Shown in pieces: positions 1,535 through 30,862 of a stretch of 31,997 nt of DNA. The stretch covers positions 1 through 31,997 of IMG/VR virus record IMGVR_UViG_3300030430_000702. One strand, 5' to 3'. Origin of the DNA: a virus. The position numbers were made by a program, and so were the translations under genes. The notes below the pieces were generated by a model, which searched no databases, had not been told where the DNA came from, and worked only from the letters and a program-made list of their open reading frames with translations. Positions within the stretch are counted from its first letter, which is position 1. The number at the start of each line of letters is the position of its first letter.

Positions 1535-2200
1535 ATGAACAATAGAATTTCAAATTATCGAAATATGCTCTTGGGAGATCATTATCGTTATATGACATCT
1601 AATTTGAAAAAGTACATACAGCTATCAGGCATGAGCCATGCTGAAGTTGCAGCTGCTAAAGGTATTGCGCCTGAAAGCCTTAGTAGGCATATATCAGGTA
1701 GATCACAATTCAGTATCCAAGATGCCATTGAATACGCTGAAATATTACAAATAGACCCAACTGCTATCCTATTTGATCCATGTAAAGTCAAAGTGTTTGG
1801 CAATATAATAAACGGATTTAGTGTCAATATGGTTAATGCCAGTGAAAAAGAAAAATTTGTTTATACATCTAATATCCGATTCGCTAGTCATGTTGGTGCA
1901 TTTACTAATCAAAGATCTGAATTTAATACTTATTTTGATGGTACTATTACTTGGGCAGATATGCGCCCAATACAATCAGAAACAATACCCCAGGACGCTT
2001 TGAGTAGGTGCTGTATATATAAATGCGCAAACACAAAAACTATAACTCAAGCCGTTTTGCACAAGCAACAAAGCGGTAAATTCACCATAGAACCTCTTGA
2101 ACATGGACACTCTATAATGACAGATGTTGATGTTGTATGGGCGTGTCCAGTTTTAGGAAGAGCTGAACGACCTGATTTGTTAGGTTTAGAAATAAAATAA
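1535..2200 (+). CDS. CI-like lysogeny repressor (HTH protein)
   Basis: 221 residues. An XRE-type HTH spans about residues 20-80: NLKKYIQLSGMSHAEVAAAKG, then APESLSRHISG as turn and recognition helix, and a closing helix with IDPTAILF. The C-terminal 140 residues are probably the oligomerisation domain. They faintly recall the S24/LexA fold (VFGNIINGFS; a C-terminal VWACPVLGRAERP), but I see no clear self-cleavage site or catalytic Ser/Lys pair, so induction may not use RecA. The start is supported by GAGG at 1524-1527, seven bases before the ATG. Matching operators on both sides of the gene imply that it controls both early operons and probably itself. Confidence 0.8.
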   Translation: MNNRISNYRNMLLGDHYRYMTSNLKKYIQLSGMSHAEVAAAKGIAPESLSRHISGRSQFSIQDAIEYAEILQIDPTAILFDPCKVKVFGNIINGFSVNMVNASEKEKFVYTSNIRFASHVGAFTNQRSEFNTYFDGTITWADMRPIQSETIPQDALSRCCIYKCANTKTITQAVLHKQQSGKFTIEPLEHGHSIMTDVDVVWACPVLGRAERPDLLGLEIK

Positions 2201-4288: not shown

Positions 4289-4568
4289 TATGAAAAATAG
4301 TAAACTTAGACTAAATGGATCTATAAATGCTACTGATCAAATATCAGTTGGATTTTGGTTTAACATTGACGATCCTGATCTAGTTGACCAGCTAGAAAAG
4401 TATTACGCTATAGCTAATAAATCACCGTCAATACAGCTGCAAAGAAAAGAGATAGATACATACACAACAATGGGTAGTGCTAATCTATTTTTACCTGATG
4501 AGCGTAAGACTATGTTGCAAAGCAACTCAACATTAATAGGAGATGATGATGGCTTCCCTGGAAGGTAG
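4272..4568 (+). CDS. Small early protein of unknown function
   Basis: 98 residues from the ATG at 4272, chosen over an in-frame ATG at 4248 because AAGGAAAGGAAAC lies just before it. The protein reads MASAPNMKNSKLRLNGSI, then QISVGFWFNIDDPDLVDQLEKYY, and ends in an acidic GDDDGFPGR. The pattern suggests a short beta-sheet plus a helix; no family is recognised. It overlaps the annealing-protein gene by 17 bases and the HTH gene downstream by 20, so it belongs to the same operon. Roles in recombination or as an inhibitor of a host enzyme are both possible and untested. Confidence 0.65.
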   Translation: MASAPNMKNSKLRLNGSINATDQISVGFWFNIDDPDLVDQLEKYYAIANKSPSIQLQRKEIDTYTTMGSANLFLPDERKTMLQSNSTLIGDDDGFPGR

Positions 4569-4752
4569 AACTTTATTAAGACCTAAAGAAGTAGCCATTA
4601 GATTGTTTGGTGATTTTGGTGATACTAATCGTAAAAGAATTTATCGCTGGATACACAACAAAAAAATAAAATCTATAAAAGATAATAGAGTGTACTTTAT
4701 ACCTAAATCTGAAATACACCGTATTGAATCAGAAATGGAAATGGCGGATTAG
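4549..4752 (+). CDS. Excisionase-like HTH protein
   Basis: 67 residues from the third of three consecutive ATGs (4549), which sits six bases after AGGAG (4538-4542). LLRPKEVAIRLFG followed by TNRKRIYRWIHNKKIKSIKDNRVYFIPKSEI has the MerR/AlpA 'HTH_17' shape: helix, turn, recognition helix, then a two-strand wing ending in a 'yfipkseieri' motif. Small proteins of this type next to an integrase are usually excisionases or directionality factors. It is the last gene of the rightward early operon, so excision would follow derepression. Its stop overlaps the integrase stop on the other strand. Confidence 0.75.
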   Translation: MASLEGRTLLRPKEVAIRLFGDFGDTNRKRIYRWIHNKKIKSIKDNRVYFIPKSEIHRIESEMEMAD

Positions 4753-4762
4753 TTTCCGCCAT
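4741..4762. terminator. Hairpin containing both stop codons at the convergent junction
   Basis: ATGGCGGA (4741-4748) and TCCGCCAT (4755-4762) form a perfect 8-bp, GC-rich stem with loop TTAGTT. The loop holds the stop codon of the excisionase-like gene (TAG, 4750-4752) and most of that of int (4751-4749 on the minus strand). Neither side has a T-run, so it would act as a processing or weak termination site for both converging transcripts. Confidence 0.5.
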
Positions 4763-5897
4763 ACATTGCTGAAGCAGCTGCTTGTCTTGCCTTTGCTTGT
4801 TTTCTTTCATTCTTAACAAAGTGACCATACTGCTTGTAAGTAAAGTTAGAGTTTGAATGCCCCATAAGAGCTGCTACTTCCGCCCAATCTTCACCCAGGC
4901 TAGATAACTGTACTGATGCATAAAAGTGTCTCATATCGCCCCATAGGATAGGTTTTACACCAGCTCTTTCACAAACTCTTTTAATTAGTTTGATCAATAT
5001 CTTTTGTACTTTTGGTGTACCGTTAGAGCTTGCAAACACAATGTCACCAGGTGCGCTAAACTTTGATGCAATCTTTAGCTCTTTAAGTTTCTTCATAGTA
5101 GCTGCATCAATAGGTATTTCTCTTCTACCTCTTTTAGTTTTAGTGTCACCAATAATCATTGTGCCATGCTTCACTGCACCCTCGATACGAATTGTATGAT
5201 TATTAAAATCAATGTTGCCCCACTTCAATGCACGCAGCTCACCTTGTCTCATACCGCTTGCAAGAGCTGTAAGAACCATACACTGATCATAAAGAGTTTC
5301 AGCTGGTAATCCGTCATTAACAATCTTTTGAATTGTCTCAGGCTGTATTCTTGGCGCCCTATCTCCAAGCTCTGATGACATACCTAATGAAACTTTATCA
5401 AGAGGGTTTATTGTAATCCAACCTTTAAGATCACAATAATTTAAAAACATTTTTAATACTTTAATTCTTTTCTCAGCTGTAGCTTTTGATTTACCTTCGT
5501 CAGTAATACCTTTAACAAAAGCTGTAACTAATTCAGATTTGTTTTCTCTTTTAATAATATCAAAACTTTGATCTAAAAATTTCTTACCATCAATTTTAAT
5601 ATCCAAACAATAACCTAACGATTTTTTTATCTCTTTGAAAAATGAAACAGACAATTCTTTATTATCTATCCTAGTTGATTGGTAATGATAAAACTTATCT
5701 ACTGCCTGGGATACTTTTACTACGTCAACTTTTTCTGCAATAGCACCAGTAATAAATTTAGCTTTGAGTAATTCAGCTTCTTTTAAAGCAGCTGCTTTTG
5801 ATGAAAAGTTACCATAATAATGTGAGTAACCCACACGCCTTGCATCAATAACCCAATGCTTTCTTTCTTCCCAATATCTTACTTTTAGATCCTTCAT
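4749..5897 (-). CDS. int: Tyrosine-recombinase integrase
   Basis: 382 residues, typical phage integrase length. The N-terminal ~55 residues are an arm-binding-type domain (VRYWEERKHWVIDARRVGYS); residues 60-165 are the core-binding helices; the catalytic domain follows from about 180. Visible catalytic residues are R217 (GMRQGEL), a lysine in the hairpin (K253 or K255 of DTKTKRGRR), R323, H347 in LMGHS and the nucleophile Y357 in YKQYGHF. The first His of the HxxR box is replaced by Gly (G320 in WGDMRH). AGGAG lies seven bases before the ATG. The gene reads away from attP and is convergent with the early operon. It would insert the phage into a tRNA-Asp gene. Confidence 0.95.
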   Translation of the reverse strand: MKDLKVRYWEERKHWVIDARRVGYSHYYGNFSSKAAALKEAELLKAKFITGAIAEKVDVVKVSQAVDKFYHYQSTRIDNKELSVSFFKEIKKSLGYCLDIKIDGKKFLDQSFDIIKRENKSELVTAFVKGITDEGKSKATAEKRIKVLKMFLNYCDLKGWITINPLDKVSLGMSSELGDRAPRIQPETIQKIVNDGLPAETLYDQCMVLTALASGMRQGELRALKWGNIDFNNHTIRIEGAVKHGTMIIGDTKTKRGRREIPIDAATMKKLKELKIASKFSAPGDIVFASSNGTPKVQKILIKLIKRVCERAGVKPILWGDMRHFYASVQLSSLGEDWAEVAALMGHSNSNFTYKQYGHFVKNERKQAKARQAAASAMYGGN

Positions 5898-5975: not shown

Positions 5976-5994
5976 TGTCTACAAAATGTCTACA
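5976..5994. repeat. Candidate Int arm-type site, copy 1
   Basis: TGTCTACAAAATGTCTACA: two TGTCTACA units 11 bases apart. The identical 19-bp sequence recurs in the same orientation at 6196-6214 on the other side of the tRNA fragment. An inverted TAGACA lies at 5962-5967. Confidence 0.7.
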
Positions 5995-6063
5995 TGGACT
6001 ATTTATAAAAGTTATGAGAAAGGTGTTTTGGGGGATAAGCCATTGATATTGCTAGGAATATAA

Positions 6064-6108
6064 TGGCGAGAGTGACGAGACTCGAACTCGCGACCTCCGG
6101 CGTGACAG
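6064..6108 (-). other. attP core: 3' part of a tRNA-Asp gene
   Basis: Read on the minus strand, 6108-6064 equals tRNA positions 32-76: anticodon loop CTGTCAC (anticodon GTC, Asp), the 3' anticodon strand GCCGG, variable AGGTC, T-arm GCGAG-TTCGAGT-CTCGT, the 3' acceptor strand CACTCTC, discriminator G (as in tRNA-Asp) and encoded CCA. The 5' half is missing: the bases past 6108 cannot pair with GCCGG. This is the usual form of a phage attP that restores the 3' end of the target tRNA after integration. The surrounding non-coding stretch 5898-6215 holds the int promoter, this core and two copies of the arm repeat; bases 6109-6195 hold no gene that I can see. Confidence 0.9.
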
Positions 6109-6195
6109 TTCGTAAAAAACCTATGCGTGGGGTGTAAAGAGGTAGGTATTCAGGGAAATACGGCTACAGAGTTCCCACCGATTCCCTCGAAAAAG

Positions 6196-6214
6196 TGTCT
6201 ACAAAATGTCTACA
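6196..6214. repeat. Candidate Int arm-type site, copy 2
   Basis: An exact second copy of the 19-bp sequence at 5976-5994, 87 bases beyond the tRNA fragment. It lies two bases after the stop codon of the 34-residue gene in that gene's reading direction. Confidence 0.7.
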
Positions 6215-13443: not shown

Positions 13444-14844
13444 TTACAATGCTATTGCCATAGCAGTAGCAAATCCCTTTGTAGCTAAAGCTGTTGCATC
13501 TATCGCAGCATCTTGCCAGGCAGAGCCGCTATAAACTCTAAGTTTGTTTGACGTTGTATTAAAATATAGATCACCAGCATTTAGAGCATCACCATCATTA
13601 TCAACACTTGGATCACTAGACTTAGCGCCTAAATATGTATCATCAAAATTATCTGCACTTGTTGCAGCAGCTGCCGCACTTGCTGCCGCAGCAGTTGCGC
13701 TACTAGCTGCATTTGTAGCTTGTGTTGTAGCGGTTGCGGCTTGTGTCGTGGCAGTTGTTGCACTAGCAGCTGCATTAGTTGCGCTGGTTGATGCTTCACT
13801 TGCTTTTGTTGTAGCAGTACTTGCTGACGTTGAAGCGTTTGTTTCAGACGATGCAGCTGCTGTTTCAGAAGAAGCCGCAGCCGTTGCAGAACTCGCTGCT
13901 GCCGTTGCACTTGTACTTGCTGCTGTCGCTTGTGTGCTTGCAGTGGTTGCAGAAGTTGCTGCATTTGTCGCAGATGTACTTGCTTCACTAGCCTTTGTCG
14001 TTGCTGTGGTTGCACTTGTCGCTGCATTTGTTTCGCTTGTTCCAGCATTTGTAGCTGAGGTAGCAGCTTCACTTGCTTTTGTTGTAGCTGTTGTCGCACT
14101 AGCAGCTGCATTTGTAGCACTTGTTGTCGCACTAGCTGCATCAACAATAAGTGAATATTTTGCACTGTTAGCGTTAGTCGTTAATGGCTGTGATCCGCTA
14201 GATGTATGAGCTGCGGTTACAATAAAAATATTATTTGTACTTGTATCTTTTACAATATCTCTTACTGCATATGCAGTACTTGCCGCCCAATCACCTTTAA
14301 AAGTTCCAAGCTCTTGTGTAACTGCTAATTCACCGCTTGTATCAAAAGCTAATATTTTGCTTGCTCTATCAGTAGCTGAATTTGTAAATTCAGTACTTGT
14401 CATTGTGTTAGTTCTTGATAGTTTAATAGATCTATCAAGCTCTTCTTGCAGCTGTTGAGTTATAAACGTAACTCTATCTAATGCATTTTCATGACTTTCA
14501 GCTGGAAACGGATCATTCTCAACATAATCTGTTCCCTGGGTAAGAGTTAGATTTCTTCTTATTACAACAGTTTCACCACTAGCTGGTCTATTGTCTGAAG
14601 ATGAATGATGAGCATCAGAACTGTTACCAGTATTAAATTTGAATAAAACATTTCCACCTGATGAATTACCAGCGTTTGTAACAATGTAGTGTGTATTAAG
14701 TGTTTTTACAGTTTCTGTACCAGTAGATGATCTTATAATTACAGTAAGATCAGCATCAGCAAATATCTTAAATCCATAGGCAAAACTATGGGTAGATCCA
14801 TTACCTGAATAACTGTTCTTGGTAGTTGTACTAGATACTGTCAT
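13444..14844 (-). CDS. Tail-fibre protein with T7-type N-terminus and heptad stalk
   Basis: 466 residues. Residues 1-150 (NSYSGNGSTHSFAYGFKIFA, FPAESHENALDRVTFITQQL, QEELDRSIKL) match the T7 gp17-type N-terminal domain that anchors fibres to the podovirus tail. Residues about 232-402 are an Ala/Ser/Thr-only stalk of seven-residue repeats like those in lambda Stf. The C-terminal 60 residues hold GDLYFNTTSNKLRVYSGSAW, a short domain found at many fibre ends. With no large receptor domain, it probably acts as the hub or proximal stalk for the proteins encoded downstream. Confidence 0.85.
   Translation of the reverse strand: MTVSSTTTKNSYSGNGSTHSFAYGFKIFADADLTVIIRSSTGTETVKTLNTHYIVTNAGNSSGGNVLFKFNTGNSSDAHHSSSDNRPASGETVVIRRNLTLTQGTDYVENDPFPAESHENALDRVTFITQQLQEELDRSIKLSRTNTMTSTEFTNSATDRASKILAFDTSGELAVTQELGTFKGDWAASTAYAVRDIVKDTSTNNIFIVTAAHTSSGSQPLTTNANSAKYSLIVDAASATTSATNAAASATTATTKASEAATSATNAGTSETNAATSATTATTKASEASTSATNAATSATTASTQATAASTSATAAASSATAAASSETAAASSETNASTSASTATTKASEASTSATNAAASATTATTQAATATTQATNAASSATAAAASAAAAATSADNFDDTYLGAKSSDPSVDNDGDALNAGDLYFNTTSNKLRVYSGSAWQDAAIDATALATKGFATAMAIAL
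13640..14150 (-). repeat. Heptad-repeat stalk, Ala/Ser/Thr-rich
   Basis: About 170 codons in which the units SATNAAA, SATTATT and KASEAST recur with a seven-residue period. TTKASEA appears three times. At the DNA level 21-bp and longer near-identical blocks recur, for example around 13794-13813 and 14069-14087. Confidence 0.8.
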
Positions 14845-28988: not shown

Positions 28989-29211
28989 TTATAGCTCCTT
29001 CTTGTTCTATTGGTTTTTTATCTTCAATCATGTTGTTAATAAACACCACAACTGACCTTTGACCTTCACGGTATATTGTCTCATCACTATTTGGCACGAA
29101 GGTAGAAGACTTGTAACTAAACCTAGTTTCTAAATCTTCTAAGACCTTCTTACCTTCAGCGGAGGAGAACAATTCTTTAAATAAAACTCTTAGCTGTTCA
29201 GGACTACTCAT
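28981..29211 (-). CDS. Bbp19-like small head-region protein
   Basis: 76 residues from ATG 29211 (a GTG at 29214 is the alternative); it overlaps the portal stop and the scaffold start by 8 bases each. The sequence LFKELFSSAEGKKVLEDLET, then STFVPNSDETIYREGQRSVV and VFINNMIE is the pattern of Bbp19-type proteins found between portal and scaffold genes of BPP-1-like phages: 'F.s..G..VL.DL ... sTF ... REGqR.Vv..I'. The role is unknown; the position suggests head assembly. Confidence 0.8.
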   Translation of the reverse strand: MSSPEQLRVLFKELFSSAEGKKVLEDLETRFSYKSSTFVPNSDETIYREGQRSVVVFINNMIEDKKPIEQEGAINV

Positions 29212-30862
29212 CACCAGCTACCAAATTCAATACTGCTTCTTGTGCTTCAGGACTTACATCATCAGCTGCTCTAAGACCTGGCGCACCTTCACCAGCTGCT
29301 TTTGCAAGCATAGCTGTCCTCTGATCAGCTGCCATTTGAGCTTGCATTTGTTGCTTCTGTTCGCGGATTGCAGCCACCTCTTCTGCCCCTCTAACCACAC
29401 TGGCTGGTACTCCAGTAGTTTTGATTATGTGCTTAGCTAATCCATCAACATCCAAGAAATCAACCACATTAGGATCAACTTGCATAAGAGGTGCAAGAAA
29501 CTGAAACAACTCAAGTGATGCCTGAATATCACCCTGACGTTGTGCTTTAGCTAGTGGTGATACATATTCTATATCTATTTCATTACCAGCCATAGTTTCA
29601 GGAGCTGGTGCAAAACCTTTTTTCTTTGATATTAAATTAAATATTCTATCAATAAGCGGTCTTAGTAATTCTGATTGCAGCCTACCAGTAAGCGGTGCAA
29701 GTATTCTCATTTTCTCTGTAGATTTTTGAATCACTTCTGTTGCTGTCATTCCTGGTCTATTACCAGTAACTAACTGATCTACATAAAACGCAGCTCTAAT
29801 TGCTGTTCGTCTTTGTTCTAACTGGTTTTCACCTAAAGGATTATTAGCGCCAATATTCAGTGGCTCAATTCTATCCCTAGTGCCTGATCGGTAAAAATTC
29901 AAACCGCCTGGAACGGTACGAACTGGAAGTATAAAACCATCATCAGGTACTAGAAGGGGAGGATGGATTTGCAATTGAGCCGCCTGAATAACTGCTTTGG
30001 ACATTTCATTCAGCATTTTTATGTCAGCCAAAGCTGTCATAGCTGGTGATCGTCCATAACCATTTTCATATGATGCCTTGCGAAATCTAGGAACCATATA
30101 CGGAAACTCATCAAATCCACTTTCAGATATAATCTTTTTATCACCAGGATCTAAATATATAGATGCCACTGGTTTATTCTTTGCATCAATCTTAACAGTG
30201 TCTCTTTCGTATCTTGGCATCACTACATGAAGCAGCTCAACCATATCATACGGATCATCCTGGGATTTTTTCAAAAGTCTTTGTGTTATATTCTCTTCAC
30301 CAAACTGCGCCACAGCTGCCCTGGCTGGCATTTTGAACTCACGAAATACTGTATCAACTCTTCCAAACTCATCTTCAGATACATAACATTCTGATATGTG
30401 CCTGGTTGAAAATCTTAATGTACCTTCTTTGTCAGTATCAACAAACATTACAGCTGTGCCAAAAGTAACCAGGTCAAAATATAATTCATTAATAGCTTCA
30501 TGAAAATTTGATCTACCGATCTCAACATACATTGTATCCGTTGCAGCTTCTAACCATTCCTTTGATGTATCGTCAGTTTCAAACTCATCGTCAGTATAAC
30601 GAAGACTAAACCAGGGCGTGCCTGAATTAGTCAACATTCCATGCATACTTGACGCCATAAGTTCAGCTGCGAACTGGGCAGTACCATCAAATATACGCTC
30701 GGTGTTTTTATCACCATGCGTTCTTTTTTTGGTAATGTTACCCTTGTTCGGCGCAACAAAGTCACCGATTTCTTGCCAGTGACTTTCCCAGTTACTTCTG
30801 TATGTCTTCAGGCTGCCAAACCTTTTCATCAATACGGCAGCTCTTTGATCAATCTCAGCCAT
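29204..30862 (-). CDS. Portal (head-to-tail connector) protein
   Basis: 552 residues, usual length for podovirus portals. The N-terminus LMKRFGSLKTYRSNWESHWQ with EIGDFVAPNKGNITKKRTHG and DGTAQFAAELMASSMHGML is characteristic of the T7/BPP-1 connector family; later, GYGRSPAMTALADIKMLNEM and NRPGMTATEVIQKSTEKMRI mark the wing and stem. The C-terminal ~60 residues are Gln/Ala-rich, as in the crown. Twelve copies would form the DNA channel. It lies between terminase and scaffold genes, in the classical order. Confidence 0.9.
   Translation of the reverse strand: MAEIDQRAAVLMKRFGSLKTYRSNWESHWQEIGDFVAPNKGNITKKRTHGDKNTERIFDGTAQFAAELMASSMHGMLTNSGTPWFSLRYTDDEFETDDTSKEWLEAATDTMYVEIGRSNFHEAINELYFDLVTFGTAVMFVDTDKEGTLRFSTRHISECYVSEDEFGRVDTVFREFKMPARAAVAQFGEENITQRLLKKSQDDPYDMVELLHVVMPRYERDTVKIDAKNKPVASIYLDPGDKKIISESGFDEFPYMVPRFRKASYENGYGRSPAMTALADIKMLNEMSKAVIQAAQLQIHPPLLVPDDGFILPVRTVPGGLNFYRSGTRDRIEPLNIGANNPLGENQLEQRRTAIRAAFYVDQLVTGNRPGMTATEVIQKSTEKMRILAPLTGRLQSELLRPLIDRIFNLISKKKGFAPAPETMAGNEIDIEYVSPLAKAQRQGDIQASLELFQFLAPLMQVDPNVVDFLDVDGLAKHIIKTTGVPASVVRGAEEVAAIREQKQQMQAQMAADQRTAMLAKAAGEGAPGLRAADDVSPEAQEAVLNLVAGDE

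Follow-up and report, generated by a model that had tools for sequence, protein, structure and literature searches.

What kind of attachment site lies at positions 5976-6214 of an uncultured marine virus, which bacterium it belongs to and which protein reads its repeats are the questions raised by this locus. The DNA analyzed here (the window) is IMG/VR record IMGVR_UViG_3300030430_000702, a linear 31,997-bp virus contig. We consider it probable that the locus serves a temperate, HTVC010P-like SAR116 podovirus as its attP, that its arm repeats and integrase (Int) belong to covarying types, and that integrase-less elements found in SAR116 genomes are most likely mobilized in trans by such phages.

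The attachment site, its phage and its host

The original prediction took the interval 5976-6214 for a complete attP, and the interval is indeed an arm-core-arm block of the tyrosine-integrase type. Exact 19-bp repeats (TGTCTACAAAATGTCTACA) lie in the same orientation at 5976-5994 and 6196-6214, precisely where they had been placed, and between them, on the minus strand at 6064-6108, is the expected 45-bp tRNA-Asp fragment (tRNA positions 32-76 with CCA). This core identity block, 5'-CTGTCACGCC...CTCTCGCCA-3', is the 3' half of tRNA-Asp(GTC) including CCA and matches SAR116 tRNA-Asp genes exactly; ARAGORN called no complete tRNA in the window, as expected for a 3' half. On the minus strand, the P-side arm sites (6196-6214) are a pair of TGTAGACA octamers at an 11-bp step, preceding the core by 106 and 95 bp, and the int-side arm sites (5976-5994) are a second TGTAGACA pair, placed 114 and 125 bp past the start of the core. 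The four exact copies of TGTCTACA in the window are all inside the two 19-bp repeats, and none of 60 Markov-shuffled windows had two exact copies of a 19-mer within 400 bp of each other. A consensus match predicts an IHF site (WATCAANNNNTTR: TATCAATGGCTTA; 6036-6048, minus strand) between the core and the int-side arm; the exact consensus recurs at the same place in 7 of 7 close-family tRNA-Asp attPs scanned (the window, L039 and L041-L045) and, among four attL sites scanned, in L016 and L095. The P-arm spacer (CTTTTTCGAGGGAATCGGTGGGAACTC...TTACGAA; 6109-6195, minus strand) is kept at 96-98% in the attR of the four integrase-less elements described below.

This attP recurs in eight other viral contigs, in most cases beside an int gene whose product is 88-98% identical. 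Arm repeats thus stand on both sides of the core at conserved spacing, with octamers starting at -106, -95, +114 and +125 from the core in all nine tRNA-Asp attPs measured (the window and these eight); the L043 attP has additional octamer copies at 10-11 bp steps. The space from attP to int varies across the phage family, and L046, L048 and L049 have extra ORFs, one of them acyltransferase-like, between the int-side arm and int. Upstream of int in L047, L048 and L049 there is a single TGTTTGCA arm with no tRNA fragment found nearby; their attachment site is possibly lost or different. Other viral matches of the arm 19-mers (L035, L037, L038, L129 and L130) were set aside, as these have the repeat, lack the att core and look unrelated.

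Profile matches bore out the presence of phage genes on both sides of the attP. To its left are integrase, probable excisionase and repressor genes; to its right are tail, nozzle, portal and terminase-like genes, a T7-like structural set. The tyrosine integrase (382 aa; 4749-5897, minus strand) matches PF00589 (2.4e-22) and phrog_1 (1.2e-45), and in the annotated phage collection the public integrases among the best matches listed are less than 30% identical to it. Convergent with int, and its neighbor in relatives as well, is the gene of a 69-aa HTH_17 protein (4543-4752, plus strand), a probable excisionase (RDF/Xis-like) whose match to PF12728 (6.1e-06) is slightly under the gathering score. 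The HTH repressor (221 aa; 1535-2200, plus strand; PF01381, phrog_4583) points to a temperate lifestyle. The head-tail connector, or portal (29204-30862, minus strand; PF12236, 3.6e-142), which is the part of the module used for this comparison, is ∼52-57% identical to those of HTVC010P-type pelagiphages, and by this likeness the phage appears to be an HTVC010P-like podovirus. At the DNA level, the closest phage similarity to the window is patchy and chiefly to pelagiphages. The tail fiber gene contains an exact 23-bp repeat (13793-14088, copies 273 bp apart).

The tRNA half had also been proposed as a clue to the host, a proposal that would have failed had no candidate host carried such a tRNA. 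Its 40-bp GTCACGCC...CTCTCG part is matched exactly by 33 stretches of genome contigs, nearly all from single-cell genomes titled SAR116; at the majority of the 33, ARAGORN called a complete tRNA-Asp(GTC), and the CCA end was present in the matches inspected. Because this match is exact, SAR116 is the likely host. The SAR116 genes diverge from the phage at position 31 and are identical to it from position 32 on, so that the core equals the host attB, strand exchange would be expected in the anticodon loop (CTGTCAC), and the phage would bring a replacement 3' half. Identity of int and att is an established means of assigning hosts, also to SAR116 phages (Mizuno et al. 2013, PMC3861242), and here the attP gives an uncultured marine temperate phage a likely host. 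The search for prophages bounded by attL and attR in the host was only partly successful: predicted attL and attR sites exist in SAR116, around integrase-less cassettes, but the search turned up no prophage of this type. A full prophage was rejected because none of 136 SAR116-order genomes has an Int homolog at E≤1e-10, in a search whose positive control recovered relatives down to 54% identity.

Covariation of arm octamers and integrase

The octamer varies among related attPs (TGTAGACA, TGTACACA, TGTTAACA and TGTTTGCA), and all copies within one attP agree. More distant relatives have TGTACCCA-type arms around another tRNA (L115 and L046) or TGTACTAC arms around a tRNA-Asp (L114). In the Int alignment, the arm type is tracked only by residues ∼22-35, in one short N-terminal stretch that reads SHYYGN with TGTAGACA, NNRYGN with TGTACACA, SVNYGN with TGTTAACA, SHAHGK with TGTTTGCA, GNKYGN with TGTACCCA and NDRHGN with TGTACTAC. 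Between types among close relatives, pN in int codons 21-35, a 15-codon segment picked after the alignment had been seen, is 0.25-0.31 as compared to ∼0.01 across the remaining gene, and within a type (close pairs) it is 0; the clustering of int differences among close relatives has p values of ∼1e-7 to 3e-6. The association of arm type with Int residues has a permutation p of 1e-4 in a small sample of 12 sequences and six types that are phylogenetically linked. The Xis-like protein, by comparison, is 100% identical in the window and L040 despite their different arm types, and the repressor does not follow arm type either; both were therefore rejected as readers of the arms. The original prediction that the repeats are Int arm sites thus gains support from their covariation with the N-terminal domain of Int and not with Xis or the repressor. 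From these comparisons of sequence, we conclude that the arm octamer and a ∼14-residue Int segment covary as what is apparently a natural arm-site specificity code. Synonymous differences are also raised in int codons 21-35, so the type-specific segment was probably exchanged by recombination; Int and attP, being neighbors, may have moved together as a single block, in which case the code could look stronger than it is.

The structural model of Int places the varied residues at the beta2-beta3 turn of a putative arm-binding domain (residues ∼1-50) with three strands (5-9, 14-18 and 27-31) and one helix (34-49), at a pLDDT of ∼70-85 across residues 1-40 and with much of the remainder at low confidence. 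The top fold-search match of Int was lambda Int (1z1b). The catalytic domain is that of a tyrosine recombinase (PF00589), with R217, R323, H347 and Y357 invariant in the alignment. In all aligned relatives the HxxR box (residues 319-323) reads WGDMR; the position held here by G320 is usually His. The first catalytic His is thus replaced, and the active site is an unusual one for a tyrosine recombinase.

We propose that a lambda-type Int cuts most likely in the anticodon loop of tRNA-Asp, and that its N-terminal domain, which we infer to bind the arm octamers, would grip those lying one helical turn apart on both sides of the core. DNA bending, probably by IHF, would fold the arms onto the core, and integration would restore the tRNA with the phage-borne 3' half. 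With their matched arms, the Int types would then form a set of integrases of naturally altered specificity, which might serve as orthogonal recombination tools.

Integrase-less elements in SAR116

At least four of the 136 SAR116-order genomes have integrase-less elements at tRNA-Asp bounded by phage-type attL and attR. The L016 element (2.15 kb between cores; arms TGTACACA/TGTGCACA) encodes a 504-aa DndB-like protein and a 73-aa ORF for which Pfam has no family; L089 holds the same DndB-like cassette in another species. The L028 element (1.62 kb, arms TGTTTGCA) encodes a 440-aa trypsin-like protease whose protease part resembles that of RT-Protease_XI defense proteins. A further element, with GmrSD_N (GmrSD-like) and AlbA_2 parts, is pieced together from two contigs of one genome (L094 and L095), its middle being unassembled. 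All four cassettes lie between attL and attR sites that belong to a known element family, and their ORFs include no integrase or transfer genes. Over 126 bp, their attR sequences match the phage P arm at 96-98% identity, and in the three elements measured the arms stand at phage spacing to within a few bp. Some att sites have decayed: the L089 attR core and one arm, and one arm of L094. Two species (G003 and G022) share the DndB cassette horizontally: their copies are ∼99% identical, and the identity drops at each att border. No close relative of the DndB-like cargo was found in the viral contigs. Neither an excision product nor a circle nor a co-resident helper was seen.

Related arrangements were noted elsewhere. 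A 2.2-kb integrase-less element at tRNA-Lys (L122:1313-3642, genome G070) encodes a protease that shares 59% identity with the L028 cargo, as well as a 114-aa ORF, and has AATCACTAGGACA-type arm-like repeats near both ends; the integrase-less arrangement is thus not confined to one att family. At L096:1450-3943 and L097:1603-5447, tRNA-Asp 3' halves are duplicated 2.4 and 3.8 kb apart with no integrase seen among the ORFs; the two loci have a common P-arm sequence that differs from the phage's and occurs at five places in three genomes, and the L096 cargo is a 646-aa protein without a Pfam match. P-arm-like sequences with 80-84% identity lie in the same gene neighborhood of two SAR116 genomes (L091:7238-7331 and L093:2981-3075); as they have no tRNA core, we set them aside as old relics or another att type.

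The cassettes resemble CIMEs of a phage type, mobilized in trans by Int of the window's phage family, a reading to which the sharing of a cassette between species lends indirect support. They would most likely be excised and inserted by the Int of an incoming phage of matching arm type, and the route between cells may be travel in tandem with the phage at the common site; movement between species could also occur by homologous recombination. A broader proposal, to which we would give not quite an even chance, is that SAR116 bacteria carry miniature integrase-less cassettes, some with anti-phage genes, which counterfeit phage att arms and rely on phage Int in trans for their movement, the octamer type deciding which phage pairs with which cassette and the Int/arm types diversifying as lock-and-key sets. 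The cassettes suggest that single likely defense genes could spread in streamlined ocean bacteria by means of a borrowed temperate-phage integrase.

The elements might instead be relics, prophages reduced to one gene between attL and attR and spread only by homologous recombination of their flanks, with no mobilization by Int. Some of their att sites have decayed, CIMEs have been described as arising by such decay (PMC5704250), and the sampled genomes contain no helper prophage, all of which would fit. However, no recognizable phage gene is left and one or two intact ORFs occupy the space; the cargo at a single site differs, with the arms in every case paired and spaced as in the phage; cassette identity drops at both att borders rather than grading into the flanks; and the related protease recurs in another integrase-less element, that at tRNA-Lys. 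We thus regard decay as a rather unlikely account of these elements.

Two other readings concern the phage DNA itself. Instead of arm sites for Int, the near-palindromic octamers could be operators of a phage repressor or sites for Xis, and an identical TGTTTGCA direct repeat adjoins a repressor-like gene in the unrelated viral contig L129; this is nevertheless highly unlikely when considering that arm type is followed by Int residues 22-35 and not by the repressor or the Xis-like protein, that the repeats keep a fixed phase on either side of the core, and that the window has no exact TGTCTACA beyond them. The window could likewise be a junction in a tandem prophage array, whose sequence would equal attP, but no host gene was seen in it, the same arrangement occurs in several virus contigs, and the SAR116 genomes yielded no prophage of this type, so that such an origin is very unlikely. 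Recurrence of the arm-core-arm and int block in several independent viral contigs, with phage genes beyond it, agrees with the earlier suggestion that the window is the unintegrated form.

Relation to known systems

No description of this arrangement was found in the open-access literature searched, which is no proof of its absence. The attP resembles those of the lambda/Tn916 type in its core with flanking arms, probable IHF bend site and probable Xis gene by int, and Int resembles its counterparts in its modeled three-strand/one-helix N-terminal domain, as described for these integrases (PMC8138268), with lambda Int as the closest fold. Unlike that type, the direct-repeat octamers of this family, at an 11-bp phase, diversify with a short Int segment among integrases that are 88-98% identical, and the first residue of the HxxR box is not His. 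The marine temperate phages of group G16 in Mizuno et al. 2013 (PMC3861242) are similar in that an integrase and a tRNA-fragment attP assign a SAR116 host; in the accessible text of that study the match serves host assignment, whereas here the arms, the specificity types and the integrase-less elements are described as well.

Phage satellites (PICI, PLE and P4-like) often carry anti-phage genes, and the SAR116 cassettes resemble them in that they would need a helper phage. The cassettes differ in having no integrase and no recognized replication or packaging gene; instead of the integrase, replication or packaging-interference genes of a satellite there are one or two ORFs only. Typical satellites are integrase-encoding and 7-20 kb long, according to the accessible text of PMC13376191. 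CIMEs, known from ICEs, are flanked by attL and attR, lack integrase and transfer genes, and are mobilized via a related element at the same site (PMC5704250). The SAR116 cassettes fit this definition in their flanks and gene content, and would do so in their presumed mobilization; in contrast to CIMEs, their att sites are phage-type rather than ICE-type, they measure ∼1.6-2.2 kb where complete and carry one or two cargo genes, and at least two of their three kinds of cargo resemble proteins of anti-phage systems.
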